Shown here piece by piece: positions 14,328-60,215 of a stretch of 64,000 nt of DNA. A model generated the notes under the pieces. The model was not told where the DNA came from and made no database searches. It saw only the letters and a program-made list of their open reading frames with translations. The stretch comes from Bacteroidales bacterium (GTDB lineage: Bacteria; Bacteroidota; Bacteroidia; Bacteroidales; UBA932): assembly GCA_017395045.1 (NCBI GenBank), contig JAFPWG010000011.1:62001-126000 (forward strand). The letters run 5' to 3'. Position 1 is the stretch's first letter, and the number at the start of each line of letters is the position of its first letter. A program made the position numbers and the translations under genes.

Positions 14328-14747
14328 CTATTTGGAGGTTAATCTGTCAACTATATTCAGGAGTGTCCTGTTCTGGGACAGCAGTTCATCTATCTGGTCC
14401 TGCATCCTTTTCACGACATCTGCGCTCTCTTCCTTTGGATGGATTACAGCGCCGTCCCCATTGATGGCAGTTCCGTGGTTGTTTTCAATGACCGTCTGAT
14501 TCTTGGTTTTTTCAGTTAGCATTTCCCCTTCGCCGGTCAAGAGCCAGGCGATGTTAATTTCAGGATATTGGTTTGCAAATTTGCGAACTATCTGCTCACT
14601 CGGTTCCCTTTTCCCCGTCACAATTTGCGAGACATAGCCCTTTGAGAGGCCCAGCTGTGCAGTCAATTCCGCTTGATTGCGCAGATGCCTGCTATCAATC
14701 AAGAAATTAACAGCCTCGATAAATCGCTGACTTACATTTACATACAT
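14328..14747 (-). CDS. Phage repressor-like helix-turn-helix protein
   Basis: I start at the ATG at 14747 (MYVNVSQRFIEAVNFLI), giving 139 residues; the open frame extends further up but would run across the facing early promoter. Residues about 20-65 form an HTH_3/XRE DNA-binding domain ('QAELTAQLGLSKGYVSQIVTGKREPS', then 'INIAWLLTGEGEML', typical of Bacteroidetes phage regulators). The C-terminus is a predicted coiled coil ('DVVKRMQDQIDELLSQNRTL') for oligomerisation, and there is no LexA-like protease domain. It faces the early operon across a promoter-operator region at 14748-14880 and probably acts as the CI-type lysogeny repressor. Confidence 0.8.
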   Translation of the reverse strand: MYVNVSQRFIEAVNFLIDSRHLRNQAELTAQLGLSKGYVSQIVTGKREPSEQIVRKFANQYPEINIAWLLTGEGEMLTEKTKNQTVIENNHGTAINGDGAVIHPKEESADVVKRMQDQIDELLSQNRTLLNIVDRLTSK

Positions 14748-14786
14748 AATTGTAAAAAACTTTCTGCAAACTTTTTCAAAAAAATG

Positions 14787-14818
14787 TTTGCACGTTTGAA
14801 AACTTTTGTTTACTTTTG
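14787..14818 (+). promoter_or_regulatory. Early rightward promoter with operator-like sequences
   Basis: -33 TTTG (14787-14790), 20-bp spacer and -7 TACTTTTG (14811-14818) fit the Bacteroidetes consensus. The -33 region is part of TTTGCACGTT, which recurs at the same position in the second early promoter at 32003. An inverted repeat TGCAAAC (14765-14771) / GTTTGCA (14786-14792) overlaps the -33 box and is a good operator candidate for the adjacent repressor. Confidence 0.65.
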
Positions 14819-14880
14819 CAACAGGTTTTGAAACTCGCTTCAAAGATAGTTAAAAACAGCGACAATAAAAAATTAAGAAG

Positions 14881-17700: not shown

Positions 17701-18645
17701 ATGAGTGTACAAATTATTCGTTACAAGGACCGGGCAGAATGGCTCGAAGGCCGCAAGGGGGGCATAGGCTCTTCCGAAGTCGGCACCATCCTGGGGGCTA
17801 ACCCCTGGGAAACACCTTACCAACTCTGGAGGCGCAAGAAGGGCATAGACCCGCCCAAGGAAGAGAACTTCTATATGAAGGCCGGGCACTACCTCGAAGA
17901 TGCCGTGGCGCGTTTCTACGCCGATTCCACGGGCGTTGAAATCATCAAGCGCAGCGCCGAAGACTTCCTTATCGTGAACAGCCTGCGCGAGTACCTGCGT
18001 GTGTCGCCTGACCGCACCTTCTGGTTGCCCAACATGACCCGCAACGAGGCCAATAAGGGCATACTGGAATGCAAGACCACCCAGCTGCCCGTCGATGCCG
18101 ACAGCATACCGCAGCACTGGTACTGCCAGCTCCAGTGGCAGCTTGGAACCGCAGAGAAGGACACCGGGGCGCTCGCCTGGCTCACGCAGGGCCGCGACTT
18201 CGGCTTTGTCAACTACGATTTCGATTCCGATTTCTTCAAGTTCATGCTCGAAGAGGTCGATAAGTTCTGGACCGACTACATCATCGGCGACGCTGTGCCT
18301 GAAAATATGAGCGTGGAAGACGTGATGATTCGCGCACCCCGCTCCGCAAAGGGCAAGAGCATCGAGGCCACCGAAGAGATTTCTACCGTCGCCGCCCAGC
18401 TGGTCGAGGCCAAGGCCGCAGAGAAAGCCGCCAAGGACGCTTCCAGCGAGCTGGCCGACAAGCTGAAGCTCTTCATGGGTGATGCTGAGGTCTTGACCTA
18501 CAAGGGTCAGACCCTCGCCACGTGGAAGTCCAATAAGGACAAGACTTTCTTCGACCTCGACGGCTTCGCCGCCAAGCACCCGAAGATGGCTGAAGAGTTC
18601 ACCAAGACCGGCCCCGGCGACCGTCGTTTCCTCCTGAAGAATTAG
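17701..18645 (+). CDS. YqaJ-like (lambda exonuclease family) recombinase nuclease
   Basis: The 314-residue protein has the YqaJ/lambda Exo PD-(D/E)xK fold: 'GGIGSSEVGTILGANPWETP' (the conserved G.S.....G.....P.....W), 'EDAVARFYADSTG', and the catalytic core 'NKGILECKTT' (ExK) preceded by 'VSPDRTFW'. 'WYCQLQWQL' is the conserved QxQ helix. It resects linear double-stranded DNA 5' to 3' for phage recombination with the annealing protein. The C-terminal third is helical and Ala/Lys-rich. The leader aaacaaacaagaag directly precedes the ATG. Confidence 0.88.
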   Translation: MSVQIIRYKDRAEWLEGRKGGIGSSEVGTILGANPWETPYQLWRRKKGIDPPKEENFYMKAGHYLEDAVARFYADSTGVEIIKRSAEDFLIVNSLREYLRVSPDRTFWLPNMTRNEANKGILECKTTQLPVDADSIPQHWYCQLQWQLGTAEKDTGALAWLTQGRDFGFVNYDFDSDFFKFMLEEVDKFWTDYIIGDAVPENMSVEDVMIRAPRSAKGKSIEATEEISTVAAQLVEAKAAEKAAKDASSELADKLKLFMGDAEVLTYKGQTLATWKSNKDKTFFDLDGFAAKHPKMAEEFTKTGPGDRRFLLKN

Positions 18646-18826: not shown

Positions 18827-19819
18827 ATGTCTGTAGGCGGTTGGATAAAGCTCTACCGGAAGTTGCGTAATTGGGAGTGGTACACCGATTCCAGAATGGT
18901 GCATCTGCTCGTCCATCTTCTGCTCTCTGCCAATATCGAAGAGCGGAAGTGGAGGGGCATAACCCTGAAACGCGGCCAGCTCGCGACCACCGTGGCAGAG
19001 CTCTCGAAAGAGACCAACATTTCCACCAAAATTGTCCGCACGGCTCTTGATAGGTTCGTAGATGGGCAGATAATAGGCAAACAACCGACAAACAAATATA
19101 CTATTATAACTATTTGTAATTTCGATAGTTACCAGTCCAAGGAAGAGGGCGAAGGGCAAACAAACGGCAATCAAAGGGCAGACAGAGGGCAAACAGATGG
19201 CAAACAAAGGGCAAACGCATCTACAGAAGAAGGGGAAGAAGGTATTAAAAGGGAAGAAGGTATTACAACAATAACAACAACTGTTCTTAATAATAATATT
19301 CCGCACGCCCCCGCGCACGCACGCGAGAAGGTTGACTTTCTGGCGCTGCCCGAAGAGCAGCAGCAGAGCGAGCGTGCCGCCTTCTTCGCCTCCTTCTACT
19401 GGGCGAATATCTGGCGACCGGCCAAAGAGGTTGAGAAGTTCATCAGGAAGAATCAGGGCAAGGGCTGGCGCTCCGGCGACGTGGTTTTCGACACCCCGGC
19501 CCAGCGGCTCGCGCTCGCTGGCATGTGGGCACAGGACGACCGCTGCCCCAAGGACCGCGACAAATACATTTCCGTTCTCCGGCAGATTTACGACGGCCTG
19601 CTGAAGCTGCGCCCCGACCTCGCCCCGCTCTGCATCGACGACCGCAACGGCATCGAGTTCCTGCAAGGTTCCGACACCGTGGTACTGCACTACCCCAAGG
19701 GCCTGGTCGCCTACTTCAAGGAAGATGAAACCGGCGCGGCCATCGTCCGCAACGCCATCAACCCAAACCTGAAGATTGAGTTTTCCGGCAAGATAATGCC
19801 CCGCACATCATTCAAATGA
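18827..19819 (+). CDS. Phage replication initiator/replisome organiser-like protein
   Basis: The N-terminal about 110 residues look like a winged-helix replication domain ('GWIKLYRKLRNWEWYTD', 'LKRGQLATTVAELSKETNIS', 'VRTALDRFVDGQII'), as in DnaD-like and other phage replication proteins. A low-complexity Gln/Asn/Lys-rich linker follows (about 105-160), then a helical C-terminal domain ('KEVEKFIRKNQGKGWRSGDV', 'DKYISVLRQIYDGLLKLRPD'). The linker DNA carries 11-bp iterons and an AT-rich tract, so the gene probably contains the replication origin, as lambda O does. It overlaps the next gene by 4 bp. Confidence 0.7.
   Translation: MSVGGWIKLYRKLRNWEWYTDSRMVHLLVHLLLSANIEERKWRGITLKRGQLATTVAELSKETNISTKIVRTALDRFVDGQIIGKQPTNKYTIITICNFDSYQSKEEGEGQTNGNQRADRGQTDGKQRANASTEEGEEGIKREEGITTITTTVLNNNIPHAPAHAREKVDFLALPEEQQQSERAAFFASFYWANIWRPAKEVEKFIRKNQGKGWRSGDVVFDTPAQRLALAGMWAQDDRCPKDRDKYISVLRQIYDGLLKLRPDLAPLCIDDRNGIEFLQGSDTVVLHYPKGLVAYFKEDETGAAIVRNAINPNLKIEFSGKIMPRTSFK
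19065..19097 (+). repeat. Iteron array 1 (three 11-bp units)
   Basis: Three contiguous 11-bp units, ggcagataata, ggcaaacaacc and gacaaacaaat, share the GGCAAACAA-type core of array 2. They sit inside the replication gene upstream of an AT-rich stretch (19093-19135). The units are degenerate, so confidence is lower than for array 2. Confidence 0.55.
19155..19220 (+). repeat. Iteron array 2 (six 11-bp units), candidate replication origin
   Basis: Six exact-period 11-bp direct repeats start at 19155, 19166, 19177, 19188, 19199 and 19210, with consensus GGCAAACAAAG. Since 11 is not a multiple of 3, the repetition is a DNA property and not a protein repeat. An AT-rich region (about 19234-19302, with TTAATAATAATATT) follows, as expected of an unwinding element. 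Together with array 1 this resembles the origin embedded in lambda gene O. Confidence 0.72.
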
Positions 19820-20102: not shown

Positions 20103-20615
20103 ATGGCAAGCATCAATCAGGTAATGCTTCTCGGAAACGTCGGCAAGGAGCCGACGGTCCGCTACCTCGAAAACAACAGCAAGGTGGCGATGTTCTCCCT
20201 CGCCACCACCGAATACTACAAGGATAAGCAGGGCCAGCGTCAGGAAGTGACCGAATGGCACAGCATCGTCGCCTTCGGCACCTTCGCCACCGTCACGGAA
20301 AACTACGTCCACAAGGGTACGCAGGTCTGCATCATCGGCAAGCTGCGCACCCGCGAATACGAGCAGAACGGACAGCGGAAATGGACTACCGAGGTCGTGG
20401 TCCAGAACCTCCAGCTGTGTGGCTCCAGGCAGGAACTCCAAGCCGCCGGAATGATAAACACCGCCCGCCAGATGAGCGAGCAGCGCCAGCAGTACGGCCA
20501 ACCTACCGCCGCACCGGCACAGCCGCAGTTCACCCCGCAGAGCGTTTCCCAGATGGCCCAGCAGGCCGCGCCCGCTGGCTTCACCGACCCGCCGACAGAT
20601 GACCTCCCCTTCTGA
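20103..20615 (+). CDS. ssb: Single-stranded DNA-binding protein
   Basis: The 170-residue protein has a classic bacterial SSB OB fold: 'INQVMLLGNVGKEPTVRYLE', 'VAMFSLATTEYYKDKQGQRQ', 'TEWHSIVAFGTFATVTENYV' and 'GTQVCIIGKLRTREYEQNGQ'. A Gln/Pro/Ala-rich linker leads to the acidic tip 'DPPTDDLPF', which recruits replication and repair partners. It is the phage's own SSB, placed between the replication gene and the DGR target gene. Confidence 0.96.
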   Translation: MASINQVMLLGNVGKEPTVRYLENNSKVAMFSLATTEYYKDKQGQRQEVTEWHSIVAFGTFATVTENYVHKGTQVCIIGKLRTREYEQNGQRKWTTEVVVQNLQLCGSRQELQAAGMINTARQMSEQRQQYGQPTAAPAQPQFTPQSVSQMAQQAAPAGFTDPPTDDLPF

Positions 20616-20652: not shown

Positions 20653-21225
20653 ATGGAATCTATCAAAATCACCCCCGAGAGCCTGTTTGAGGCTTTCCAG
20701 AAAGCGACCGACGGCGAAAAGGCCCGCCTCTGCGAACTCGTCGAGAAGTACAAGACTTGGAACGAGGACGAAATCAGGCAGGGCATTATCGAAGTCCTGA
20801 ACGGCAGCGAAAATGCCGCCGATATCCCTACCGCCTGGAGAAAGTGGCTCACACTCGCCACCGCCGCCCAGACCGCCCCGGCCGACCTCAAGCCTCGCTA
20901 CGTCGAAGGAAAGGGCATCTACGTGCCCGTCGTGGGCAAGTACCTCGCCATGCAGGACAGCTTCAACGGTGCGGAAGTGAACTGGGACAATGCCGTCAAA
21001 GAGGGCGCACCTTCCCGCGATGAGTGGTATATCATCCTCTTCTTCAAAGATGAAATCAACCGGCTCCTGCGCGAGAACGGCGGCGAAGAGCTCGATAATT
21101 GGTACTGGACCTCCACAGAGAACTCCGAGGACCACGCCTGGGTCGTCGTCGCTTCCAATGGCTACGTCGGCAGCTACGTCAAGTACTTCCAGTACTCTGT
21201 GCGGGCGTGGGCCGCATCTGAGTAA
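20653..21225 (+). CDS. DGR-diversified small C-type-lectin-like protein (VR1 target) in the early operon
   Basis: The 190-residue protein has a helical N-terminal part (about 1-80) and a C-terminal C-type-lectin/DUF1566-like domain: 'VNWDNAVKEGAPSRDEW', then 'WYWTSTENSEDHAW' and the end 'SVRAWAASE'. The last about 38 residues are encoded by VR1, which matches the phage template repeat except at 17 template-adenine positions. Twelve of fourteen Asn codons of the template have been changed, to Asp, His, Val, Val, Tyr, Gly, Ser, Tyr, Val, Tyr, Phe and Tyr. There is no signal peptide or membrane segment. Lying between ssb and the zinc-finger/helicase-methyltransferase genes, it is probably made early inside the cell, which is unusual for a DGR target. 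The ligand is unknown. Confidence 0.85.
   Translation: MESIKITPESLFEAFQKATDGEKARLCELVEKYKTWNEDEIRQGIIEVLNGSENAADIPTAWRKWLTLATAAQTAPADLKPRYVEGKGIYVPVVGKYLAMQDSFNGAEVNWDNAVKEGAPSRDEWYIILFFKDEINRLLRENGGEELDNWYWTSTENSEDHAWVVVASNGYVGSYVKYFQYSVRAWAASE
21109..21221 (+). repeat. DGR variable repeat 1 (VR1)
   Basis: The 113-bp region aligns without gaps to the template repeat at 58854-58966. I count 17 differences, each at a template A (changed to G, T or C); every template G, C and T is preserved. The last stretch (tctgtgcgggcgtgggccgc...) is identical and serves as the initiation-of-homing (IMH) side. It ends next to the stop codon of the target gene. Confidence 0.95.
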
Positions 21226-21238
21226 TTTTTGACATATC

Positions 21239-21262
21239 GCCGGGGTCGTCTCCGACCCCGGC
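21239..21262 (+). other. DGR hairpin downstream of VR1
   Basis: Perfect 10-bp stem GCCGGGGTCG / CGACCCCGGC with loop TCTC (GAGA on the other strand), 17 nt after VR1. The VR2 hairpin has the same loop and closing pairs, with compensatory changes at two stem positions. In known DGRs such a hairpin or cruciform 3' of the VR, absent at the TR, promotes target-primed mutagenic homing. Confidence 0.9.
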
Positions 21263-21277
21263 ACAACCCACAAGAAG

Positions 21278-21661
21278 ATGAAAACGCTAACAGGCATAAA
21301 GGTTTATCAGTGTGAGCACTGCGGAAAGGTATCGCTCAATGCCGGTGCGCTATCCAGGCATGAGCGCGTCTGCCACTCGAACCCTGAAAACAAACCGCAA
21401 TGCTGGGACTTCTGCGTGAACTATTCCGACACCGGGGAAAAGCAAGAGGTGTGGCTGGACGACTACCGCTCAAGCAAGGTCCCGAAGCGCAAGTGCGAGG
21501 CGAGGAAATGCTTGCTATTTACCCCGCTCTGTGCCGAATGGAAGAAAGAGCATTTGCGAAACATCGACGACGAAGACTGGCAGAAGATGCCCTCGATAGT
21601 CGAAGGATGCGAGCAGTTCAAGAATCCGGATGCAGACAAGCCTTTCCCTTGGGAAATTTAA
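21278..21661 (+). CDS. C2H2-type zinc-finger early protein
   Basis: The 127-residue protein starts with a zinc finger 'YQCEHCGKVSLNAGALSRHE' then 'RVCH' (C-x2-C-x12-H-x4-H spacing). Further Cys residues (CWDFC; CEARKC) suggest a second metal site. The rest is unrecognised. It follows the VR1 hairpin, with ACAAGAAG just before the ATG, and precedes the helicase-methyltransferase. A nucleic-acid-binding role is inferred. Confidence 0.65.
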   Translation: MKTLTGIKVYQCEHCGKVSLNAGALSRHERVCHSNPENKPQCWDFCVNYSDTGEKQEVWLDDYRSSKVPKRKCEARKCLLFTPLCAEWKKEHLRNIDDEDWQKMPSIVEGCEQFKNPDADKPFPWEI

Positions 21662-21671
21662 CACAACCGAA

Positions 21672-24272
21672 ATGAAGAAAAGAGACAAATACATTGAGTT
21701 CCTCGAAAACAAGATGGCCATCAGCTCGCAGAGCGGCTTCGAGGTCGCAGACGAAGAGCTGACACCTTCGCTGTTCCCGCACGTGAAGGACACCGTGAAA
21801 TGGGCCGTTAGGGGGGGGCGACGGGCTATATTCAGTTCCTTCGGAATGCAGAAGACCGTCACCCAGCTGGAGATTCTGCGCATCATCCTTGCCCACGAGG
21901 GCGGCTACGGGCTGATTGTCTGCCCCAAGCGCGTGGTGGTCGAGTTCATAGAGCAGTCGAAACGCTGGCTTGATATGGAAGTCCACTACGTCAGGACGAT
22001 GCAGGAAGTGAAAGCCTGCCCCACGCCTATCATGGTGACAAACTATGAGCGCGTCCGGGACGGGGAGGATGGCGTGCGCATTGACCCGGACTATTTCACT
22101 GCCACGTCCCTTGACGAGGCTTCAGTGCTCCGTGGTTATGGCACCAAGACCTTCCAAGAGTTCCTTCCCCTGTTCGCAGGCGTGAAGTACCGCTTTGTCG
22201 CCACGGCCACCCCGTCACCGAACCGCCTGAAAGAGCTAATCCACTACAGCGGCTATCTGGGCGTGATGGACACCGGGCAGGCGCTCACCCGCTTCTTCAA
22301 GCGCGACAGCACCAAGGCCAACAACCTGACCCTGTACCCCAACAAAGAACAGGAGTTCTGGCTGTGGGTCGCCACGTGGGCGCTCTTCCTCACCAAGCCC
22401 TCCGACCTCGGATATCCAGATGACGGCTACCAGCTCCCGGAGCTGCGCGTGCATGAAGAGGTCGTGAGCGTGGACCACCTTTCCGCAGGCGTGGACCAGG
22501 ACGGCCAGATGAAGATGTTTCGTGATGCCGCCCTGGGCCTCAACGCAGCCGCGAAGGAACGCCGCGATAGTATGCCGGAGAAGATTGCCCGCGTGGTCGA
22601 AATCATCAACCGGCCCGAGAACAAAGACGACCATTTCCTCCTTTGGCACGACCTCGAAGATGAGCGCCACGCCCTCTGCAAGGCCATACCCGGCTGCAAG
22701 GCCGTCTATGGCTCCCAGGACGAAGACGAAGCCGACCAGATAGTGCTGGACTTCAAGGAAGGACGGCTCAAGTACCTTGCGGCCAAGCCCGAAATGCTGG
22801 GCGAGGGCCTGAACTTCCAGTACCACTGCCACAAGGCCATCATGTTCATCGACTACCGCTTCAATGACAAGTTCCAGGCGGTCGCCCGCATCCACCGCTT
22901 CATGCAGCAGTACCCCGTGGACCTGTACCTCGTCTATGCCGAGAGCGAGCAGGAAATCTACAAGAGTTTCATGGAGAAGTGGCGGCGGCACAACGAGACC
23001 GTGGAGAAGATGGCCGGCATCGTGCGGGAATACGGCCTTTTCGGCCTCGACGTGAAGCAGAAGCTGATGCGCTACATGTTCTCCCAGAGGGAAGAGCAGA
23101 AGGGCGAGCTCTACCGGGCCATCAACAATGACAACGTACTGGAGTGCCGGAATATGGAGCCTGATTCGGTGGACCTCATCGTGACCTCGGTTCCGTTTTC
23201 CAATCACTACGAGTACACGGCCAGTTACAACGATTTCGGCTTCAACACCGACAACGACGAATTTTTCAAGCAGATGGACTTCCTGACCCCGGAGCTGATG
23301 CGCGTGCTGCGCCCGGGCCGGTTGCTCTGCGTTCATGTCAAGGACCGCGTGCTGTTCGGGAACGCCACCGGCGACGGAATGCCGACCATCGACCCCTTCA
23401 GCGATATGTGCGTGTTCCACTATATCCGTCACGGCTTCCGCTACATGGGGCGCATCACCGTTGACACCGACGTGGTGAGGGAAAACAACCAGACCTACAG
23501 GCTGGGCTATACCGAAATGCGCAAGGACGGCACCAAGATGGGCATCGGCTGTCCTGAATATGTCCTGCTGTTCCGCAAGCTGCCCACGGACACCTCCCGG
23601 GCCTACGCCGACGTTCCCGTAACCAAGCGCAAGGAAGACTACAGCCTCGCCCGCTGGCAGATTGACGCGCACGCCGACTGGAAGAGCAGCGGCAACCGGC
23701 TTCTGTCCTTCGACGATGTGCGGGGCATGGATATCGACGGCATCCGTCGCATCTTCCGCAAGTTCAGCGCCGAGCACCTGTACAGCTACGAGGACCATGT
23801 GGCCTTTGCGGAAGAGCTGGAGGCTTACGGTCGCCTGCCGAAGACGTTCATGGCCGTGGACCCGGCCAGCCATAAGGACTACATCTGGGACGACATTCTG
23901 CGCTTCCGCACCCTCAACTCGCGCCAGAGCCAGAAGGCCCTCCAGATGCACGTCTGCCCCCTTCAACTGGACCTCGTGGAGCGGCTGATTGAGCGCTACT
24001 CCAACAAGGGCGACCTCGTTTTCGACCCGTTCGGCGGCATCGCCACCGTGCCATACTGCGCCGTCAAGATGGGCCGCAGGGGCCTCTCTACGGAACTGAA
24101 TCACGACTACTGGAGGGACGGCCTCGAATACCTGCGCGAAGCAGAACAGGCGCAGCTCTCGCCGACCCTGTTCGACCTTCTGGACGATGAGCGCCAGAAC
24201 CCGCCGGAGGAAGAGCCTATCGAAATCGAGCTGGACCCGGACACCTTGGATATCATCAACAAAACCAAATAG
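21672..24272 (+). CDS. SNF2-like helicase fused to a DNA (N6/N4) methyltransferase
   Basis: The start at 21672 gives 866 residues. The N-terminal about 480 residues form an SF2/SNF2-type motor: a variant Walker A 'SSFGMQKTVTQLEIL', a DEAS box in 'TSLDEASVL', motif III 'VATATPSPN', and motif VI 'QAVARIHRFMQ'. The C-terminal half is a methyltransferase: motif IV variant 'TSVPFSNHYEY' (S-V-P-F where S-P-P-F/Y is usual) and AdoMet-binding 'VFDPFGGIATVPY', with IV before I as in beta-class enzymes. This fusion recurs in phages and may protect or mark DNA during translocation. There is no restriction endonuclease. A G8 tract (21811-21818) near the start is a potential slippage site. Confidence 0.82.
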   Translation: MKKRDKYIEFLENKMAISSQSGFEVADEELTPSLFPHVKDTVKWAVRGGRRAIFSSFGMQKTVTQLEILRIILAHEGGYGLIVCPKRVVVEFIEQSKRWLDMEVHYVRTMQEVKACPTPIMVTNYERVRDGEDGVRIDPDYFTATSLDEASVLRGYGTKTFQEFLPLFAGVKYRFVATATPSPNRLKELIHYSGYLGVMDTGQALTRFFKRDSTKANNLTLYPNKEQEFWLWVATWALFLTKPSDLGYPDDGYQLPELRVHEEVVSVDHLSAGVDQDGQMKMFRDAALGLNAAAKERRDSMPEKIARVVEIINRPENKDDHFLLWHDLEDERHALCKAIPGCKAVYGSQDEDEADQIVLDFKEGRLKYLAAKPEMLGEGLNFQYHCHKAIMFIDYRFNDKFQAVARIHRFMQQYPVDLYLVYAESEQEIYKSFMEKWRRHNETVEKMAGIVREYGLFGLDVKQKLMRYMFSQREEQKGELYRAINNDNVLECRNMEPDSVDLIVTSVPFSNHYEYTASYNDFGFNTDNDEFFKQMDFLTPELMRVLRPGRLLCVHVKDRVLFGNATGDGMPTIDPFSDMCVFHYIRHGFRYMGRITVDTDVVRENNQTYRLGYTEMRKDGTKMGIGCPEYVLLFRKLPTDTSRAYADVPVTKRKEDYSLARWQIDAHADWKSSGNRLLSFDDVRGMDIDGIRRIFRKFSAEHLYSYEDHVAFAEELEAYGRLPKTFMAVDPASHKDYIWDDILRFRTLNSRQSQKALQMHVCPLQLDLVERLIERYSNKGDLVFDPFGGIATVPYCAVKMGRRGLSTELNHDYWRDGLEYLREAEQAQLSPTLFDLLDDERQNPPEEEPIEIELDPDTLDIINKTK

Positions 24273-25728: not shown

Positions 25729-25831
25729 GCCGAAAAACCTGTGCCTCTGCTGCCGCTGGTACAACCGTGGGGGGGGGTACTGCTCTAAACCAATCGAATA
25801 TGGCTATTGCCTGATAACAAGGAGTGTATGA
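25721..25831 (+). CDS. 36-residue Cys-rich mini-protein with a G9 tract
   Basis: MSKPKNLCLCCRWYNRGG... carries a CxCC and two later Cys (YCSKPIEYGYC), which looks like a tiny zinc knuckle related in style to the Cys-rich products at 27411 and 33836. The ATG overlaps the previous gene and the stop overlaps the methyltransferase ATG (ATGA). A run of nine G (25769-25777) encodes its GGG. A slip there would shift the frame and uncouple it from the methyltransferase start. Confidence 0.45.
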   Translation: MSKPKNLCLCCRWYNRGGGYCSKPIEYGYCLITRSV

Positions 25832-28549: not shown

Positions 28550-28803
28550 TGCGCCTTATTGTTTACATTCTTGTTGGATTCTTGAACGTGTTTTTACACA
28601 CAGGAAAGAATATCGTGATTATCAAGCACCCGTCCAAGTTGGTCGGTAGCCTGGCAAACTGCATCTGTTACACCTTTTCTGCCGTTGTTATCAAGTTTAT
28701 AGCCGAATACGACCTTCTTACAGCCCTTTTGGTTCAAGCGGCTACGAATTTCCTTGGATGCTATACGGCCATGTATTTCACTGAAAAATTATTGAAAAAA
28801 TGA
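28546..28803 (+). CDS. Small membrane protein
   Basis: The 85-residue protein has two to three hydrophobic segments ('LIVYILVGFLNVFLHTG', 'LANCICYTFSAVVIKF', 'LLTALLVQAATNFLGCYTAM'). Coupled by 4-bp overlaps to the neighbours. Function unknown. Confidence 0.5.
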   Translation: MMRLIVYILVGFLNVFLHTGKNIVIIKHPSKLVGSLANCICYTFSAVVIKFIAEYDLLTALLVQAATNFLGCYTAMYFTEKLLKK

Positions 28804-51860: not shown

Positions 51861-52048
51861 GGTTCCGTGGTGCAAATAAGGAAATGACGGCCCGCTACAA
51901 GGTCCGTCCGAACGGCGAAATCTGGTCCGTTCAGGAGATGTATCGCGGTGCCAGTCTCGTATGGCAGGCGATACGTTCCTGTTTCGGCTCCGGAGCATGG
52001 ATAGGCGAGCGCCCCTGGCTGGGCGATGACCCTTGGAAAGGAATTTAG
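51857..52048 (+). CDS. Small tail-region protein
   Basis: The 63-residue protein is Trp-rich at the end ('GSGAWIGERPWLGDDPWKGI'). It lies between tail-tip genes and probably is a structural or assembly factor. No known family. Confidence 0.5.
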   Translation: MRFRGANKEMTARYKVRPNGEIWSVQEMYRGASLVWQAIRSCFGSGAWIGERPWLGDDPWKGI

Positions 52049-52070
52049 AACCCTACTAAATCACAACTAT

Positions 52071-55000
52071 ATGGCAAGAACAAGCCCCAACAGCATCACA
52101 TCAATGTCCCAGAGCTGGAAGAATGACCCGGCCAACAACCTGCCTTTCTCCGGCGACGCGGTAGAGGCGTTCATCAAGGCGACCTTCGGCACCAAGTTCG
52201 GATATATCACCATCCCGCAGGCCAAACAGCAGGATGGGTTTTATCATATCTGGTGCTTCGCCACGGAAGCGGATTATGACAGCTACGTCGAGAACCCAAC
52301 GACCCACGCCAGCAAGCTGCTCCAGGACATCGCCATCCCCATCAGCACGGAACACGGCGTTACCTATTCGGCCCGCCTCGTGTGCTCGGAGACCGTCTCT
52401 AACCAGATTGTCTCTGTCGAGAAGCGCCACCTCACCGGCCTGCGTTTCTCTTCCATCCAGAACGACAACGGCACGCTCATCAACGCCGGTATATCCGGCA
52501 TCCTGACCTTCCAGCGCTCCGTTGACGGCGGCTCCACCTGGGAGACCGTGGGCACGGATTCCATCACGTCCCGCGAGACCAACGACACGGTGTATGATAC
52601 CTTCGACATCGGAAAGTATTTCTCCAACACCAACCCGCAGCAGATTCGCGTCCGGGCCAGCTTCGCCGTCACCGACGAAGAGGGCAATATCCTTTCCACC
52701 GCGACGAGCGCCTGGATTACGTGGAGCAACATCATCTACACGACCCTGACGCTGGAGTTCGCCTACGACTATTCGCAGGCTATTGACGCATCGCAGGTGA
52801 CGGCCCTGCCGCTCGCCTATATCCTCACCGGCTCCGTCGCCCGCCAGCTGCATGTCAGTATCATCGGCAGCAAGGGAACCTATACGCACGTTTTCAACAT
52901 TGGCGCAAATGAGTACACCAGCGAGCTTCAGACGTGGAGAGGCCAGGCTGACGATGACAGCAATCTGTACGGCCTCCTTACCAGCGGCGTTAAGACCATC
53001 GAAGCGTGGCTTACCTGCTCGGCTGGAGGGTCAGGCGGCACCATCGAGAGCGAGCATGTGGTGAATCAGGTCGTTGTAGATGCTGGGGAGACCATCGACC
53101 CGGTTGTTCTTATCGAGGACCTGCGCACCACCGTCCAGAACTACGTCCCTGTCGAGTTCTTCCGTTGGTCCGTATATGCTCCGGGCCACGAGACCGTCTC
53201 CGTGCGCTTCAAGCTCACCGACTACAACGGGAATGAGACGTACCTCGATGAAACCATCCTCGCCATCCCGGGCCAGTCCTACATCCAGAACGCAACCGTG
53301 GAGATTGAGGACAGCGTGAACGATACCCTATATGCCTACCTGTCAATCATCATCGACGGTGTGCAGAGCGGAAGTCGCACGGCCATCACCGTTGACAACA
53401 GCGACAAGTTCGCTCCCACATCTGGGGCCGATTGGGTGATGAACCCCAAGACCCGCAATAACTCCGCAAAGAATGCGGGCGGTACCGACAACGTGGAGAC
53501 AATCGACGGCGTGACCGCCACCTTCGAGGGCATGTCTTGGCTCACCGACGGCTGGCTGGAGGCAGAGGACGGACAGCGCGTGCTCCGTCTTCTGGCCGGG
53601 CAGCGCGTGACGTTCGGGTATGACTGGCTGGATTCGTTCGCCAATAACGCAAACTCCAATGTCACCCTTGAGCTGGACCTGAAGGTGCGCAACATCACCG
53701 ACGAAGATACTCCCTGCCTGACGGCCCTTGAGACCTTCGCCAGCGCCGCCGGTTATATCGGCCTGAAGATGAAGCCGCTCGTGGGAGCTGTTATGACAGC
53801 GACCAAGGTCACGGAGGAATCGCAGGATTTCCGTTGGCAGGAAGATGAGCGCGTCCGCATCGCAATTAACATCGTTTCCCAGCTCCGCGCCGGAGTGGCC
53901 GGTGGCAGCGCGATGCCTCTGTGCCGTGTCTTTGTGAACGGGGTTATCAACAGGGAGTTTCAGTTTGAGACCGAATCCGGCCAGTGGTGGCGAAGCGGCA
54001 GTAGCATCGTCGTTGGACAGCACGCCGCCGATATCGACATCTACGGCATCCGCGTGTACAAGGGCAACAACGGTGCCCTTACCAGCGCCGATATCCTGAA
54101 CGACTATGTGGCGACCCTTCCCACGTCGGAAGAAAAGAACACCTTCAGGAATGCCAATGCTATCCTTGGGCCTAACGGCCTTGTGAGTGCCGACCTGTGC
54201 AAGCAGAAGGGCGTGAACGTCCTTATCTGGCACGGCATCCAGCCTTACCACGAGCTGACCGCCAAGCAAAAGGGCTGGTGGGAGGTCCACGTGTACGATG
54301 CCAGCGGCCACGAGATACCCGAATACTCCGGGACCATCTGCCAGGAGAGCAAGAGCCTCGAAGCGAAGAGGCAGGGCACGACGGCAAACACCTACTACTA
54401 CTCCAATATCCAGACGAAGCTCAAGGACGTGACCGATACCATCCTTGTGAAGGTTGAGGATATCCACCCCGATTTTACAGATTGGGAGGAAAGTCAGGAG
54501 CACCCGGGCTATGCCGAGGTCGTGGACGGCTGGATTGACGGGAACGGCAAATATCGCGGTGCGCAGTACCAGAGCGCTGCGGGCGTGCCCTACGCTACAA
54601 AGCTCGTCGGCAAAATCAACTACGCATCATCCATGCAGTCGCACCTGATGGCCTCCTGCCGCCTGTACAACGACCTCCACAAGGCCATCGTGGGCCTTAC
54701 GTCGCTCCAGCAACAGAGCGCTGGGGCGAGAGTGGCGAAGTATCAGGAAATGTTTCTGTACTTCACGCAGGCCGACAACGACCCCGCGCCGGTATTCCAA
54801 GGCCCTATCACGTGGGGAGCCGGAAAGATGGACGACCCTACCTGGGGCTATAAGAAATCCAGTCATGCGATGTTCTGCATGATTGAGGGGGCTGACAACA
54901 ACCTTCCCCTGACGGACATGCGCGTCCCGTGGCAGTCCAACCGCATCACCGTTACCGAAGATGACGGTGAGGTGGCAGGATGGGTGTACAACGGTGCGGT

Positions 55001-58000
55001 GAACCTGAACCTTGACCGCTGCAAGACCGTAACCCGGGATTTTGCCGTGCTCGATGCTAACAACCAGCGCACCACCAAGTCCCTGAAGGGGCCGTCCGTG
55101 GATGTCGAGAACAAAATCAAGCAGTTCGTCAACTTCTTCTACCGCCACAATCCCCGTATCAAGGTCTGGGTTGGCCCGTGGTCTGGTACAGGTGGCTTCA
55201 TGGCTTCGGACCAGCAGGCTTCCGCCCGTGATTGGATGTGGTGGTGCACCGCTGGAGACGATGCTTACAAGCTGCGCCGCTTCGACTACGTGGAGCAGGT
55301 CTGGGTTGAGGCAGGATGGGACGAGACTAACGAGGCCGTGGAGGTGCGCAACCTCTCGACGGAGTTCCCTACCGCCGTTTCCGAGAATGCCGGTGAGTGG
55401 GAGGACATGAACGCTGCCTTTATCGCGGCCATCGCCGCCCACGCCCGCGCCAACGTCGGCGACATCGTGGTGACGGATTCCCTGAAGTTCCATTACGCAT
55501 TTGTCCACCAGCTGCTCGCCGGTTCGGATAACTGCTCCAAGAATACCTACTACACCCTTGACCCGGTGACGCTCAAGTGGTTCTTCTCGCAGGACGACAT
55601 GGACACCATCCTTGCCACCGATAACTCCGGCTTCCAGACGAAGCCCTACTACATCGACCGCCAGAACCCGTGCGCGGAGGGGTCCGACGTGGCCCTGTAC
55701 GAGGGTGGAGCAAATGCCCTGTTCAACTGCTGCGAGGCTATGTACGAAGGCACCGGCGAAATCCGGGAAATGCTCAAGAGCATCTTCACGGCCATGTCGT
55801 CGCTCGTGTCATCCACCGAAAATATCCCTTGGGTTGACAGCGCCGACCGTCCTACGCCTTGGGGCTGCATGTGGAAATACTTCTTCTCAGTCCAGAAGAG
55901 AATCCCGGCGGTGGCCTACAACGAGACCGCCCGCATCCGCTACGAGGGACCCGAAAGCATCGGCTTTGTCTCTGACCGTGGCGTGCGCCCTATCTCGCAG
56001 TCTATGGGCGACCAGCTCCAGAGCGAACTCCAGTATATGAAGCGCCGTCTGGTGATGCTCGCCAGCTATGCCGAGTGGGGCAACTTCTCCGTGTCCTCTG
56101 GCAGCTCCGGCAACATCGGACTGCCTGACGCATCGGCCCTGCTGGGTATCGAGGCGACCACCGACGTGGCTGGTAATGCCGCCGAAATCGTCTTTACCGG
56201 CCTCATTCCCCATCAGTACCTGTGGCCCGGTGGACGTGTCGGCCAGACGAACAAGGCCCTGCGTAAGCGTTGCAAGCCGGGCGTGCCGGTGAACTTCGAC
56301 CTGACCGGAGGAACCGCCGTGCAGGGCGACACCGCCTGCGCCCTGTATGGGACGAACTACTATCGTTCCCTTGGCAACCTCGGCAATATCAGCGTGAAGG
56401 ACAGCCGCGAATGCCAGATTACGGCCAAGCGCCTGACGAACCTCCTGATATCCCCGACGGACCCGGATAAGCCGAATTTCCGGCCTACGTCGCTGGTCCT
56501 GAACGCCCCGCTTCTGGAGACTATCAACCTCAACGGGAGTAACCGTATCGGCGGCACGCTGCGCCTTGTCGAGTGCGTGCGCCTCGCATCAGTCGATTTG
56601 CGGGGCTGCTCGTCCATCAATGCCATCGCCCTGCCGGAGAACCGCCTGCTTACGAGCGTGCAGCTTGGGTCTGGCCTGACTGACCTTTCCATCGGAAACC
56701 AGCCTTGTCTCAACACGCTCACCCTCGAAGGGGCCACCCTCCTGCAATCCCTCCGCATTGTCGCGCCGGCAGCGAACAATATCAGCTCGCTGGCCATCAT
56801 TCAGCAGTGCTATGAGGATGACGCGCCGCTGTCCCACGGCATCAGGATTGATAACGTGAACTGGTCCCTGAACGGAGCTGGGCTTGTGACGTGGCTCGCC
56901 AACCTGTCCGCCGACCTCCGGGGGCAAATCGACATTGCCGGAAACAACCGCGTGACGTTCACCACGAAGCAGCTGTACCTCGACACGTGGGGGGATATCG
57001 ACGATTCGCAGAACCCCCTATACATCACATACGTCCCCATCAACCTTGCCAGCGTCAAGATTTACGGGAAGCATTACCTCGATGCCGTCGGCAACTACCA
57101 GCTGAATATCATCCCGAACAGCCAGTATGCGAATAACTTCAGCTCTATCGTCTGGTCTATATCCGCCAATGCCTATGCGACCATCAACGCAAGGACCGGC
57201 CTTGTGACGGTCCAGAACGTCAGCACGGAGGATATCGGCCCGACGGCCACCGTCACCGTCCAGGCGACCCTCACGAACGGAACCGTCCGCACCGCGACGC
57301 TGGAGCTGGCCTTCTATGAGCACATGCCGCAGGTGGGAGACCTCGTATATGCGAACGGGGAAGTCCTCGACTACTACGACGATGCTATGACCCCTGTTTT
57401 GCTGGTTACATGGGTGAATCCCAGCGACCGCAGGCACGGTGTCGGCGCGTCGCTTACCGTCCTCGCATCCCATTATTGGGGCCTGTATAACAACGCATCG
57501 AGTGGTGTTGCTGGCGTGACGCTGGAGGATTCCGACTACTCCGCCTATAACAACCCGTTCCTGACGAACAAGACGACGCGAGGCGTAAACTACACCACCG
57601 ATGCGGGATATCTGGACGACGGCCAGCCTGACGGCTTCGCTGTGTTCACCGGCAACGACGTTCTGGCGGAAATCGGCAATACGCAGGTGACACAGGCGCT
57701 CTACGAGCAGCATTCGCAGTATTTCGATGACCTCGGGATAGAGGTTGGCGATTCGATACCTTGGGGCCTGATGAACACCATCAAGATTATCCACCACAGG
57801 GATATCGTGATGTCCGACAGCGCCGTGGACATGGCCGCGCTGATACCCCAGCGAACCGGCAACTACTCCGAAATGGAGATGCTGCTGGCGAACATGGCTG
57901 ACGTGGCCGCTGAATCCGGCAACGTGTACCGGCAGTTCTTCTTCCCGGCTGCGAGCCTCTGCCACGCCTACGAGCCTACGGTCAAGGCCGGTGAGGTCCT

Positions 58001-58253
58001 GGCCGACAAGTTCAAGGCGCATCATTGGTTCCTCCCCGCCGAGGGTGAGCTGGCCCGCTTTGTTTGGCACAACATGAACGGCTCCTTCCAGATGGCTGTC
58101 AACGCTGGCATATACACAGTACCGACCGCCTACCACTGGTCCTCCACAGAGTACTCCGAGGGCAACGCCTGGCTCGTCTACGCTTCCGGTGGCAACGTCG
58201 GCTACGGCACCAAGGCCAGCCAGAACTCTGTGCGGGCGTGGGCCGCATTCTGA
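52071..58253 (+). CDS. Giant tail tip protein (2060 residues), DGR VR2 target
   Basis: The ATG at 52071 (MARTSPNSITSMSQSW) is used. From N to C I see beta-sandwich repeats, a LamG/concanavalin-like part near residues 460-660 ('DGWLEAEDGQRVLRLLAGQR' and 'IVVGQHAADIDIYGIRVYKG'), a long middle, leucine-rich-like repeats near 1480-1590 ('LLETINLNGSNRIGG', 'LASVDLRGCSSINAIALPEN'), a BIG2-like domain ('VWSISANAYATINARTGLVT'), and a terminal C-type-lectin/DUF1566-like domain ('HHWFLPAEGELARFVWHNMN', 'YHWSSTEYSEGNAW'). The last about 36 residues are VR2. Such a protein is most likely the receptor-binding tail tip that the DGR adapts to changing host surfaces. Confidence 0.82.
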   Translation: MARTSPNSITSMSQSWKNDPANNLPFSGDAVEAFIKATFGTKFGYITIPQAKQQDGFYHIWCFATEADYDSYVENPTTHASKLLQDIAIPISTEHGVTYSARLVCSETVSNQIVSVEKRHLTGLRFSSIQNDNGTLINAGISGILTFQRSVDGGSTWETVGTDSITSRETNDTVYDTFDIGKYFSNTNPQQIRVRASFAVTDEEGNILSTATSAWITWSNIIYTTLTLEFAYDYSQAIDASQVTALPLAYILTGSVARQLHVSIIGSKGTYTHVFNIGANEYTSELQTWRGQADDDSNLYGLLTSGVKTIEAWLTCSAGGSGGTIESEHVVNQVVVDAGETIDPVVLIEDLRTTVQNYVPVEFFRWSVYAPGHETVSVRFKLTDYNGNETYLDETILAIPGQSYIQNATVEIEDSVNDTLYAYLSIIIDGVQSGSRTAITVDNSDKFAPTSGADWVMNPKTRNNSAKNAGGTDNVETIDGVTATFEGMSWLTDGWLEAEDGQRVLRLLAGQRVTFGYDWLDSFANNANSNVTLELDLKVRNITDEDTPCLTALETFASAAGYIGLKMKPLVGAVMTATKVTEESQDFRWQEDERVRIAINIVSQLRAGVAGGSAMPLCRVFVNGVINREFQFETESGQWWRSGSSIVVGQHAADIDIYGIRVYKGNNGALTSADILNDYVATLPTSEEKNTFRNANAILGPNGLVSADLCKQKGVNVLIWHGIQPYHELTAKQKGWWEVHVYDASGHEIPEYSGTICQESKSLEAKRQGTTANTYYYSNIQTKLKDVTDTILVKVEDIHPDFTDWEESQEHPGYAEVVDGWIDGNGKYRGAQYQSAAGVPYATKLVGKINYASSMQSHLMASCRLYNDLHKAIVGLTSLQQQSAGARVAKYQEMFLYFTQADNDPAPVFQGPITWGAGKMDDPTWGYKKSSHAMFCMIEGADNNLPLTDMRVPWQSNRITVTEDDGEVAGWVYNGAVNLNLDRCKTVTRDFAVLDANNQRTTKSLKGPSVDVENKIKQFVNFFYRHNPRIKVWVGPWSGTGGFMASDQQASARDWMWWCTAGDDAYKLRRFDYVEQVWVEAGWDETNEAVEVRNLSTEFPTAVSENAGEWEDMNAAFIAAIAAHARANVGDIVVTDSLKFHYAFVHQLLAGSDNCSKNTYYTLDPVTLKWFFSQDDMDTILATDNSGFQTKPYYIDRQNPCAEGSDVALYEGGANALFNCCEAMYEGTGEIREMLKSIFTAMSSLVSSTENIPWVDSADRPTPWGCMWKYFFSVQKRIPAVAYNETARIRYEGPESIGFVSDRGVRPISQSMGDQLQSELQYMKRRLVMLASYAEWGNFSVSSGSSGNIGLPDASALLGIEATTDVAGNAAEIVFTGLIPHQYLWPGGRVGQTNKALRKRCKPGVPVNFDLTGGTAVQGDTACALYGTNYYRSLGNLGNISVKDSRECQITAKRLTNLLISPTDPDKPNFRPTSLVLNAPLLETINLNGSNRIGGTLRLVECVRLASVDLRGCSSINAIALPENRLLTSVQLGSGLTDLSIGNQPCLNTLTLEGATLLQSLRIVAPAANNISSLAIIQQCYEDDAPLSHGIRIDNVNWSLNGAGLVTWLANLSADLRGQIDIAGNNRVTFTTKQLYLDTWGDIDDSQNPLYITYVPINLASVKIYGKHYLDAVGNYQLNIIPNSQYANNFSSIVWSISANAYATINARTGLVTVQNVSTEDIGPTATVTVQATLTNGTVRTATLELAFYEHMPQVGDLVYANGEVLDYYDDAMTPVLLVTWVNPSDRRHGVGASLTVLASHYWGLYNNASSGVAGVTLEDSDYSAYNNPFLTNKTTRGVNYTTDAGYLDDGQPDGFAVFTGNDVLAEIGNTQVTQALYEQHSQYFDDLGIEVGDSIPWGLMNTIKIIHHRDIVMSDSAVDMAALIPQRTGNYSEMEMLLANMADVAAESGNVYRQFFFPAASLCHAYEPTVKAGEVLADKFKAHHWFLPAEGELARFVWHNMNGSFQMAVNAGIYTVPTAYHWSSTEYSEGNAWLVYASGGNVGYGTKASQNSVRAWAAF
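58141..58248 (+). repeat. DGR variable repeat 2 (VR2)
   Basis: VR2 aligns to the template from base 58855 on without gaps, with 17 differences, all at template A. Eleven of fourteen template Asn codons have been altered, including AAT to GGT. After GCCGCAT, VR2 has one extra T compared with the template, which makes TTCTGA and ends the gene; this marks the 3' limit of homology. Confidence 0.95.
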
Positions 58254-58266
58254 TATCTTGGCCGTC

Positions 58267-58290
58267 GCCCGCGTCGTCTCCGACGCGGGC
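58267..58290 (+). other. DGR hairpin downstream of VR2
   Basis: Perfect 10-bp stem GCCCGCGTCG / CGACGCGGGC with loop TCTC, 13 nt after the stop codon. Compared with the VR1 hairpin, stem positions 4 and 6 differ and their partners change to keep pairing. It may also end transcription of the tail operon. Confidence 0.9.
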
Positions 58291-58354: not shown

Positions 58355-58750
58355 ATGCAACCGGCGCAGGCACCCATTTACAGGAAGACGGAAGAACTGC
58401 TCGAACTGACCTTTGAGCTGGTCGAACGTATCCCGAAGTCCCTGCCAAACCGCATTTCTGGCGAGAAGGTTATGGATGCGCTCTACGACGCGCTCGATTT
58501 CCTGTATCTCGCACTTAAAAAGGAGCAAAAAGGTGCGCATGAGCTTCAATGTATGGAGGCTTTCGCGCTGAAGATGTCGAAAGTCAAGACCATTTACCGT
58601 GTCTTCCTTCGTCGTAAGGTCGTGTCAAAGAAGCAGTACGCCCGCGCCCTGAAGCTCTTCCATGATATCGCCTCGCAGGCGGGATTCATTATGAAGGGTA
58701 TTCAGTGCGTCAATGCCGCAGAAGGGTCCACTAATGTTCATAATGATTAA
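58355..58750 (+). CDS. avd: DGR accessory variability determinant (Avd)
   Basis: This 131-residue basic four-helix-bundle protein ('YRKTEELLELTFELVERIPK', 'KVMDALYDALDFLYLALKKE', 'KTIYRVFLRRKVVSKKQYAR') has the length, charge and position of Avd, the pentameric partner that binds the reverse transcriptase and template RNA and is required for mutagenic homing. The template repeat follows 104 bp after its end. It carries no catalytic motif, as expected. Confidence 0.88.
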   Translation: MQPAQAPIYRKTEELLELTFELVERIPKSLPNRISGEKVMDALYDALDFLYLALKKEQKGAHELQCMEAFALKMSKVKTIYRVFLRRKVVSKKQYARALKLFHDIASQAGFIMKGIQCVNAAEGSTNVHND

Positions 58751-60215
58751 GGTTGTTATGATTAGTCTATCCTCATTGATATCAGATGGTCGCACCACTG
58801 CGCTGCTCGGGCTCACCCCGGACAACGTAGTTATGTCACGAGTGTGCGAAGCTACCTCCACAGAGAACTCCGAGAACAACGCCTGGAACGTCAACGCTTC
58901 CAATGGCAACGTCAACAACAACAACAAGAACAACCAGAACTCTGTGCGGGCGTGGGCCGCATCTGATTATGAGGATGTGGCGGGATGGGTGGATGCCTAC
59001 CTCGATTGCATACACAAGAAACTTTCCTCTACCCAGTGCGGGGAGTACCGCATCGACTATGAAGAGGACCTGTACAACCTTATCGGGGAGGTCTATTCGC
59101 AGACCTACGAGCCGTCCACGAGCACCTGCTTCGTGGTGAAGCGCCCCCGGCTCCGCGAGATATTCGCGGCGGCGTTCCGTGACCGCATCGTCCAGCATTG
59201 GATTGCCATACGGATAAACCCGCTTCTGGAGGCGCGTTTCATCGCCCAGGGCAATGTCTCCTACAACTGCCGCAAGGGCTACGGGACCCTGCTGGCCATC
59301 GAGACCATGCAGGATAAGATTGCCCGGGTGAGCGCCGACTACAGGCGCATGGCCTACCTTGCGAAGTACGACGTGCAGGCGTTCTTTATGAGCATCGACA
59401 AGCGCATCCTCTGGGCAAAGCTGGAGCCTTTCATCCGTGAGAACTACACCGGCGACGATATCGAGACGCTGCTGTACCTGACGCGGATAACGGTCTTCCA
59501 CTGCCCCCAGAACAACTGCGTCCGCACCGGCGACCTCTCGCTCTGGGAGAAGCTGCCCAAGGGCAAGAGCCTCTTCGATTCGGACCCCAACGTGGGAATG
59601 CCGATAGGGAACCTCACCAGCCAGCTGCTCGCCAACTTCTATATGTCTTTCTTCGATGATATGGCGATAGCCTACTTCGCGGAGAGCGGCGGCGAGTATG
59701 AGCGGTTCGTCGATGACTTCCCGGCTGCGGACCAGAGCAAGGAGCGCCTGCTGGCGTTCAGGGCCATTGCGCGGGATTTCCTCTGGCGGGAGCTTCGCCT
59801 GCGCCTGCACGAAAAGAAGTTTTACATTCAGGAGGCCCGCAAGGGGATGAACTACGTGGGCATGTCCCTGCGGCCCGGGCGCAAGTACATATCGAACACC
59901 ACACGCGGCCACTACCTTGAGACCCTGCACCGGGCCGAGAAGATTTGCAGGCAGATTGCGGAGAAGGGCATGGACCTGGAGCTGTCCCGCGACCTTGAGC
60001 ACGCGGTGAACGGCATCAACTCCTATCTGGGGCTGATGAGCCACGCCTACAGCTACAACGTCAGGACGAAACCGCTCGCCTCCCTGCATTACTTCTACCG
60101 CTATTGCTCCGTCACCCGGCGGGCGCTGGTGGTCCACGTCAAACCCCAACACAGATACGATAACGTCATTTTCAAACACTACGAATATGAATTGGAATTA
60201 CGGAGAGCAGCCTGA
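58713..60215 (+). CDS. DGR reverse transcriptase
   Basis: The reverse transcriptase has 'YDVQAFFMSIDKRI' (RT motif A), 'GMPIGNLTSQLLANFY' (the DGR-type IGNLTSQ instead of QG in motif 4) and 'RFVDDF' (catalytic YVDD variant FVDD). No maturase or endonuclease domain is present. The open frame starts at 58713 within avd and passes through the template repeat in frame (residues about 45-85). I cannot tell whether the protein starts there or at a GTG after the template (58977 or 58989), which would give about 410 residues. The first clear RT homology is 'TSTCFVVKRPRLREIFAAAF'. It overlaps the next gene by 29 bp. Confidence 0.95.
   Translation: MPQKGPLMFIMIKVVMISLSSLISDGRTTALLGLTPDNVVMSRVCEATSTENSENNAWNVNASNGNVNNNNKNNQNSVRAWAASDYEDVAGWVDAYLDCIHKKLSSTQCGEYRIDYEEDLYNLIGEVYSQTYEPSTSTCFVVKRPRLREIFAAAFRDRIVQHWIAIRINPLLEARFIAQGNVSYNCRKGYGTLLAIETMQDKIARVSADYRRMAYLAKYDVQAFFMSIDKRILWAKLEPFIRENYTGDDIETLLYLTRITVFHCPQNNCVRTGDLSLWEKLPKGKSLFDSDPNVGMPIGNLTSQLLANFYMSFFDDMAIAYFAESGGEYERFVDDFPAADQSKERLLAFRAIARDFLWRELRLRLHEKKFYIQEARKGMNYVGMSLRPGRKYISNTTRGHYLETLHRAEKICRQIAEKGMDLELSRDLEHAVNGINSYLGLMSHAYSYNVRTKPLASLHYFYRYCSVTRRALVVHVKPQHRYDNVIFKHYEYELELRRAA
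58854..58966 (+). repeat. DGR template repeat (TR)
   Basis: The invariant 113-bp template has 13 AAC and one AAT codon when read in the VR frame; A-to-N changes at AAC can give about 15 amino acids and never a stop. It lies in frame inside the 5' part of the RT reading frame and lacks the downstream hairpin found at VR1 and VR2. Its 3' part (tctgtgcgggcgtgggccgc...) is identical to both VRs. Confidence 0.96.

Follow-up and report, generated by a model that had tools for sequence, protein, structure and literature searches.

A second, replication-region target of a diversity-generating retroelement in a Bacteroidales phage and its possible intracellular role

We propose that one diversity-generating retroelement (DGR) made adenine-only changes in two genes of a Bacteroidales prophage, and that the product of the second gene, a 190-aa protein, is an early cytoplasmic binder of variable host defence proteins; taken as a whole, this reading is given a little under an even chance. 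The phage was found in a window of 64,000 nucleotides (the whole stretch of DNA that was analysed; GCA_017395045.1, contig JAFPWG010000011.1). It is of the temperate type and runs from a repressor-like gene through replication genes and structural genes to a fibre and the DGR reverse transcriptase (RT). The terminase, portal, major head protein, tape-measure match and tail protein are found at 36.9-51.2 kb of the window, and the gene of the 2075-aa fibre is placed after the predicted tail protein. The features are as follows, with TR for the template repeat and VR for the variable repeats.

14328-14843, minus strand: repressor-like gene (match to PHROG transcriptional regulators)
17701..18645, plus strand: YqaJ-like recombinase
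18827..19819, plus strand: DnaD-like helicase loader, in the same gene run as ssb
20103..20615, plus strand: SSB (Pfam E 2e-30), gene directly 5' of the 190-aa target
20653..21225, plus strand: second DGR target, 190 aa, with a helical N-terminal part and a C-terminal Lcl_C-like domain
21109..21221, plus strand: VR1, 113 nt, 17 changes, all at template A
21239..21262, plus strand: hairpin after VR1, 10-bp stem, loop TCTC
21278..21661, plus strand: 127-aa ORF, C2H2 zinc-finger matches all below the Pfam cut-off
21630..24272, plus strand: fusion of an SNF2-like helicase and an N6/N4 DNA methyltransferase
25807-27411: C5 methyltransferase
52026..58253, plus strand: first DGR target, 2075-aa predicted tail fibre with a C-terminal Lcl_C-like domain
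58140..58248, plus strand: VR2 at the end of the fibre, 109 nt, 18 changes, all at template A
58267..58290, plus strand: hairpin after VR2, 10-bp stem, loop TCTC
58355..58750, plus strand: bAvd-like accessory ORF (E 1e-4, 23.0 bits; Pfam cut-off 40)
58713..60215, plus strand: open frame of the DGR RT, 500 aa as listed (RVT_1 E 2e-8)
58854..58966, plus strand: TR, within the 5' part of the RT open frame

Membership of the DGRs is indicated by an RT matching RVT_1, with the TR in the same open frame, and by a VR at the end of a C-type-lectin (CLec) domain. Two VRs match the one TR: VR2 at the end of the fibre and VR1 at the end of the 190-aa ORF, 37.7 kb from the TR. VR1 differs from the TR at 17 of 113 nt, and all 17 mismatches fall on the 38 template adenines of the stretch (chance about 3e-10); the 18 differences of VR2 over 109 nt are likewise all at template A. 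Read in the frame of VR1, the template contains 13 AAC codons and one AAT, at which changes at A yield no stops, and one AAG codon, which could become a stop. Because one template feeds both targets, they are offered an identical substitution set at each variable codon, and only selection differs between these otherwise unrelated proteins. A hairpin with a 10-bp stem and a TCTC loop follows both VRs; on the sense strand this loop does not fit the 5'GRNA consensus, whereas GAGA on the complementary strand does. The inner hairpin sequence GTCTCCGAC is found in exactly two copies in the window, which is weak evidence alone, because 12 of 100 shuffles had two or more. A sequence-only reading of this DNA had described the 17 adenine-only changes from a shared template, a hairpin belonging to VR1 and a distance of about 37 kb to the RT, and these points were all reproduced. 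Its interval for the target, 20653..21262, has the correct start; the gene ends at 21225, and 21262 is the end of the hairpin.

Concerning the RT open frame, the TR is translated as its N-terminal part, and the region 58713-58990 alone matches Lcl_C weakly; a TR translated within the RT frame is also described in Pseudoalteromonas phages (PMC10612066). Three further observations come from the rest of the window. To the left of the identified phage genes, two tandem paralogues of 767 and 602 aa (3346-7454) share DNA stretches that are 70-87% identical, and the first of them is without a PHROG match. A radical-SAM-like gene is located in the early region (28800-29597; Pfam E 4e-6, just below cut-off), and phage BS-TP1 has an annotated radical-SAM gene about 11 kb past its early target. 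Before the terminase there is a gene resembling phosphoadenosine-phosphosulfate reductase (35289-35978, phrog_424), with no PADLOC match.

The gene carrying VR1 is found outside the tail module, among replication genes; the terminase follows 16 kb and the fibre gene 31 kb downstream. Upstream of it are SSB, a 90-aa ORF and the DnaD-like helicase loader, and the helicase/methyltransferase is two genes past it. The A-only VR1 and the position of its gene thus agree with the earlier proposal of a second, distal, diversified, non-tail target in a replication operon. The neighbours named at that time were ssb and a zinc-finger/helicase-methyltransferase pair; ssb and the helicase-methyltransferase are confirmed, while the zinc-finger assignment falls below the Pfam cut-off.

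The 190-aa protein matches Lcl_C with E 0.0012, which is below cut-off. In a simple scan it contains no lipobox and no hydrophobic N-terminus (highest 19-residue hydropathy -0.13), in line with the previous statement that it lacks a signal peptide. No export signal was seen in any of the 10 early targets scanned, and one distant relative, P0020, has a hydrophobic N-terminus by eye; the lack of such an N-terminus does not prove that a protein stays in the cytoplasm. A C-terminal CLec domain is predicted to display the rewritten residues on the helical N-terminal part, which may oligomerise or dock. A second structure model, made with 26 sequences, brought no gain over the first (mean pLDDT 65.5 against 67.2). 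No named structural match was obtained for the N-terminal helices, which the VIA-align rows barely cover. PADLOC gave no match for the protein and no defence-related family was matched; a STAND/NACHT NTPase domain is absent by Pfam and PADLOC, and no Ig-like domain was matched. Back-translated patterns retrieved no close IMG/VR relatives of the window target or of the distal target of contig G241, described below, and one of the corresponding Bacuni target.

The layout is common to four related phages, namely that of the window and three relatives (G558, G048 and the IMG/VR record L155). G558 contains a near-identical phage, with ssb 99.4% and the helicase/methyltransferase 99.9% identical at the protein level. 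Over 113 nt its VR1 has 15 differences from that of the window, 14 on template adenines; its VR2 has 17, all on template adenines. The aligned stretch of 3,338 nt that includes VR1 has 48 mismatches, 33 of which are outside VR1 (about 1%), so that the divergence of VR1 is well above that of the neighbouring sequence; the 3.0 kb upstream of the target gene are 94% identical. In P0001 the differences from the window protein are confined to the VR.

In G048 the gene order is the same, on a single contig of 57.5 kb, with ssb, the target and the helicase/methyltransferase near one end and the fibre and RT towards the opposite end. Identity to the window is 79-87% for the terminase, portal, head protein and helicase/methyltransferase and 54% for ssb; the RT (42-43%), the target (35%), the fibre (28%) and the genes past the RT (about 30%) have diverged. 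Compared with its own TR, the VR1 of G048 has 15 changes in 117 nt, all at A, and its VR2 has 13 at A over stretches of 56 and 62 nt, which are separated by a short non-A mismatch. The L155 record (58.7 kb) contains an RT 47% identical to that of the window and a target directly 5' of the helicase/methyltransferase; relative to its TR, the proximal VR has 17 and the distal VR 15 changes, all at A. Judged from these comparisons, VR1 is kept and appears to be active. Viral loci with a related helicase/methyltransferase numbered 181, of which 80 were kept, several of them with short flanks. Among the 80, L155 has an adjoining target, and weaker lectin-like ORFs are found some 3 kb from the helicase/methyltransferase of L214. 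A search of six of these records for an RT was positive for L155 and negative for five without a target, which may be fragments.

The first 80 residues of the target differ between the window and G558, whereas the lectin domain outside the VR and the neighbouring genes are nearly identical; the display domain is therefore set on different helical bases. At the DNA level, 20653-20890 of the window and L055:9992-10230 encode different N-terminal modules, as if exchanged by recombination, though the neighbouring genes are about 99% identical.

For a wider survey, RTs were searched in genomes of the same genus (38 places in 36 of 400) and of the same order (37 places in 27 of 393), with the genome of the window included in both. 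We scanned 35 contigs, comprising 17 of the 38 places, 15 others of the 37, the RT of G558 and two phage records; they were picked by RT similarity and contig size and not at random. At least one A-only VR was present in 28 of the 35, and none at all in the other seven (G318, G199, G688, G641, G542, G591 and G758). A VR more than 10 kb from its TR was found in 8 of 35 (G000, G048, G558, G032, G357:C15, G241, G256 and Bacuni F1), which is a lower bound because many contigs are shorter than 40 kb. In G241 the distal VR alone was found.

All eight distal VRs are located among early-type genes, that is, genes of replication, transposition or methylation. The distal targets of G000, G048 and G558 are beside ssb and the helicase/methyltransferase; that of G032 is two genes past a primase-like protein with a DnaG zinc ribbon, that of G256 follows a primase and an N6/N4 methyltransferase, and that of Bacuni F1 is flanked by a C5 methyltransferase and by a small ORF adjoining DNA polymerase A. 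In G241 and G357 a MuA-like transposase follows the target, either immediately or two genes on, and a small regulator-like ORF is close by. The G241 transposase is 24% identical to the MuA-like protein of the hankyphage (E 2e-30) and is followed by AAA/TniB- and GemA-like genes; the G357 transposase is 62% identical to it, in a region split across several ORFs. No hairpin comparable to that of the window was seen after the distal VR of G241 or G357, and no distal VR was found in hankyphage p00 or in MT835523. Two small ORFs past the G032 target resemble HicA and HicB by eye. An N-terminal docking module common to the window family and the G241 and G357 targets looked likely by eye and was dropped; it is not claimed because a profile built without G241 and G357 missed both in a search of 11,245 ORFs that allowed E values up to 10. 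Residues 1-46 of P0014, used as a query, matched P0014 to P0017 only.

Further cases are found outside this count. In G328 the TR and VR are on different contigs (114 nt matched, 16 changes at A), and the VR belongs to a lectin-like ORF of 126 aa that is flanked by a phage integrase and a DnaG-type primase. The VR of BS-TP1 gp76 (112 nt, 11 at A) is on the opposite strand, with a Lar-like gene about 7 kb away. Two genes past gp76, gp79 (L060:14352-15614) is a second RT-like gene, around which no A-only repeat was found. Phage Lagaffe gp40 contains a VR of 105 nt with 11 changes at A; the gene is preceded by a transposase and two small genes and followed by an exonuclease, Gam, ERF and SSB, and this second VR is already published (PMC11792537). 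Only 48 nt with 8 changes at A are available for Dulem virus 37, where the protein is near a methyltransferase subunit and a Lar gene. Phage Magia has an RT and three VRs (gp46, gp47 and gp57), all in a region with RecT and an exonuclease, and no VR was found in its tail genes; its authors named gp47 and gp57 as targets (PMC7883833), and the third repeat, in gp46 (L153 32336-32426), is VR-like, 91 nt long and has 11 changes at template A. A decayed retroelement is seen in G298 (L008 / G298:C11), with three stops in the RT frame and length changes in the VR copy of its early target, which is near an N6/N4 methyltransferase gene. A methyltransferase is not a constant neighbour, as none adjoins the target in G032, G241, G357, G328 or Magia.

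The Bacuni phages permit the two targets to be compared with the host. According to PMC8143477 (Table 1), one strain served for the isolation of F1 and F2 and another for that of F4. The early targets of F1 and F4 are identical (675/675 nt), but 18 nt separate their tail VRs, 17 of these at template A. Between F1 and F2, the 421 nt compared in the tail target show a single difference, and the early VRs show 16, 15 of which fall on template A (that paper counts 15 in the secondary VR), the rest of the early gene being identical. The early target thus varies without a change of isolation host, and from the two comparisons the host follows the tail VR and not the early VR. This dissociation, in three phages from one donor, speaks against an attachment role of the early target. 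As in the window, these phages have a tail-side target next to the RT and a distal target, with A-only VR changes; the target sequence is related in the lectin domain only.

In the reading that we favour, the 190-aa protein would be expressed together with the replication genes and would act within the cell at an early stage of infection or upon induction. Its variable face would be tried against a changing set of intracellular partners, of which host defence proteins are the most likely, and variants that bind and block such a partner would be selected. The sequence-only reading had likewise put forward an intracellular ligand, as an inference. The position of the gene, its neighbours, the absence of an export signal and the Bacuni result point in this direction, and a host defence protein is preferred as the ligand because the recurring neighbours are DNA methyltransferases and genes of replication, recombination or transposition. 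Several points count against it: a methyltransferase does not adjoin the target in every case, the protein itself matched no defence-related family, its fold is shared with adhesins, the Bacuni comparison covers three phages, and template supply alone could keep a second target. The broader proposal, that unrelated phages keep an intracellular, antibody-like, hypermutable arm of lectin fold, made with their replication or transposition genes and screened anew in each host against defence proteins, is held with more doubt than confidence; such an arm would correspond, on the side of the phage, to the hypermutated antigen sensors that have been proposed for bacteria.

Three other explanations were weighed. 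The early protein may instead serve the lysogen by binding competing phages or components of the phage's own regulatory circuit, which covers superinfection exclusion and control of induction. Competing phages vary as much as host defences, the G241 and G357 targets are near a MuA-like transposase and a small regulator-like ORF, and a toxin-type YafQ gene is found directly 3' of the early target of G256 (L092:3737-4012). We consider this unlikely, as the window gene is in the replication run and does not adjoin the repressor-like gene at 14328-14843, and the Bacuni phages, a lytically isolated set, retain the early target. That the protein is an adhesin, secreted or made early and assembled into or onto the particle, so that both targets serve attachment, is judged distinctly unlikely. 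Elsewhere the lectin fold typically belongs to surface adhesins, the Bacuni authors read both targets as host-adhesion proteins, fimbrial-tip-like (PMC8143477), and the Faecalibacterium authors proposed a host-range role for the second target of Lagaffe, with a doubled effect (PMC11792537); however, every distal-VR case examined is away from the structural module, no export signal was seen in the targets scanned, and early targets and hosts are dissociated in F1, F2 and F4.

It is improbable that VR1 is a by-product, of little use to the phage, of a process that rewrites any gene with a template-like end and a hairpin. Homing does need little beyond VR homology and a downstream hairpin (PMC3240598), but relatives with a diverged retroelement still have a template that matches both VRs, the target retains its frame and lectin core, and the arrangement recurs in phages whose early genes differ.

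Early cytoplasmic binding, the preferred reading, can be set beside published systems. The BPP-1 DGR of the Mtd type, with TR, VR, RT, Avd, a hairpin and mutagenesis at A (PMC3240598, PMC8144416), corresponds to the fibre target of the window and is described with one tail target only. DGRs with tail targets are also reported in PMC10612066 and PMC12386605, and two-target phage DGRs in PMC10743442 and PMC11792537. The sequence-only reading had taken phage DGRs to be known for tail receptor-binding proteins; two published accounts do not support a restriction to these. Quimbyvirus (PMC8008677, 2021) has a CLec target downstream of its tail fibre genes and another that is distal, judged non-structural and less than 7 kb from methyltransferases. 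In four inducible gut prophage species (PMC12629997, 2025) a second VR is located far from the RT, close to counter-defence genes, for example a DNA methyltransferase. Both papers suggest a role of the distal targets in phage-host conflict. Like the window, Quimbyvirus has its second CLec target far from the RT (37.7 kb in the window), outside the structural genes and near methyltransferases; unlike in the window, that target is on the opposite strand in a defence-related island, the RT is split over three frames, and the account does not place the target in a replication run beside ssb. The likeness to Quimbyvirus given here is one of description; the four prophages, compared in the same way, share the distal VR near a methyltransferase, and kinship may or may not exist. 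Lagaffe (NC_047911) resembles the window in having its second VR among early recombination and replication genes, whereas its protein is of the FGE/SUMF1 lectin type, with 420 aa, and its host belongs to a different phylum. In multicellular bacteria, CLec DGR targets are proposed to act in conflict systems and not in attachment (PMC10907252); those sensors are bacterial and tied to STAND/NACHT NTPases, unlike the 190-aa protein. Tentaclins (PMC10743442) have an N-terminal CLec followed by Ig-like domains, whereas the lectin domain of the window target is C-terminal.

A distal second VR near methyltransferases is thus a published kind of arrangement, as far as these sources describe it, and the phage of the window is a further case. 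Added here are the ssb setting, the co-divergence of the template with both VRs, the exchange of N-terminal parts, the dissociation of the early VR from the host in the Bacuni phages (the variation numbers themselves are already in PMC8143477, Table 1), and the recurrence of distal targets beside primase, PolA and MuA-like transposase genes. No DGR target beside ssb was recognised in the literature searched, supplements and most subscription papers aside, and the co-divergence, the N-terminal exchange and the early-VR/host dissociation were not met there.

A survey of more than 30,000 DGRs required repeats within 20 kb of the RT (PMC8144416), and the default of DGRScan is a 10-kb RT-centred window (stated in PMC8008677). 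A target at 37.7 kb escapes both and therefore falls in their blind spot; if the broader proposal is true, many such targets would go unnoticed in surveys limited to the 10-20 kb that surround the RT. The recurrence beside ssb, primase, PolA, MuA-like transposase and methyltransferase genes makes the prediction testable, with Bacuni F1, F2 and F4 as cultured examples. According to the cited papers, attachment is the only function of a phage DGR that has been demonstrated by experiment; if early targets act intracellularly, phages would own a self-mutating counter-defence (or immunity) protein.
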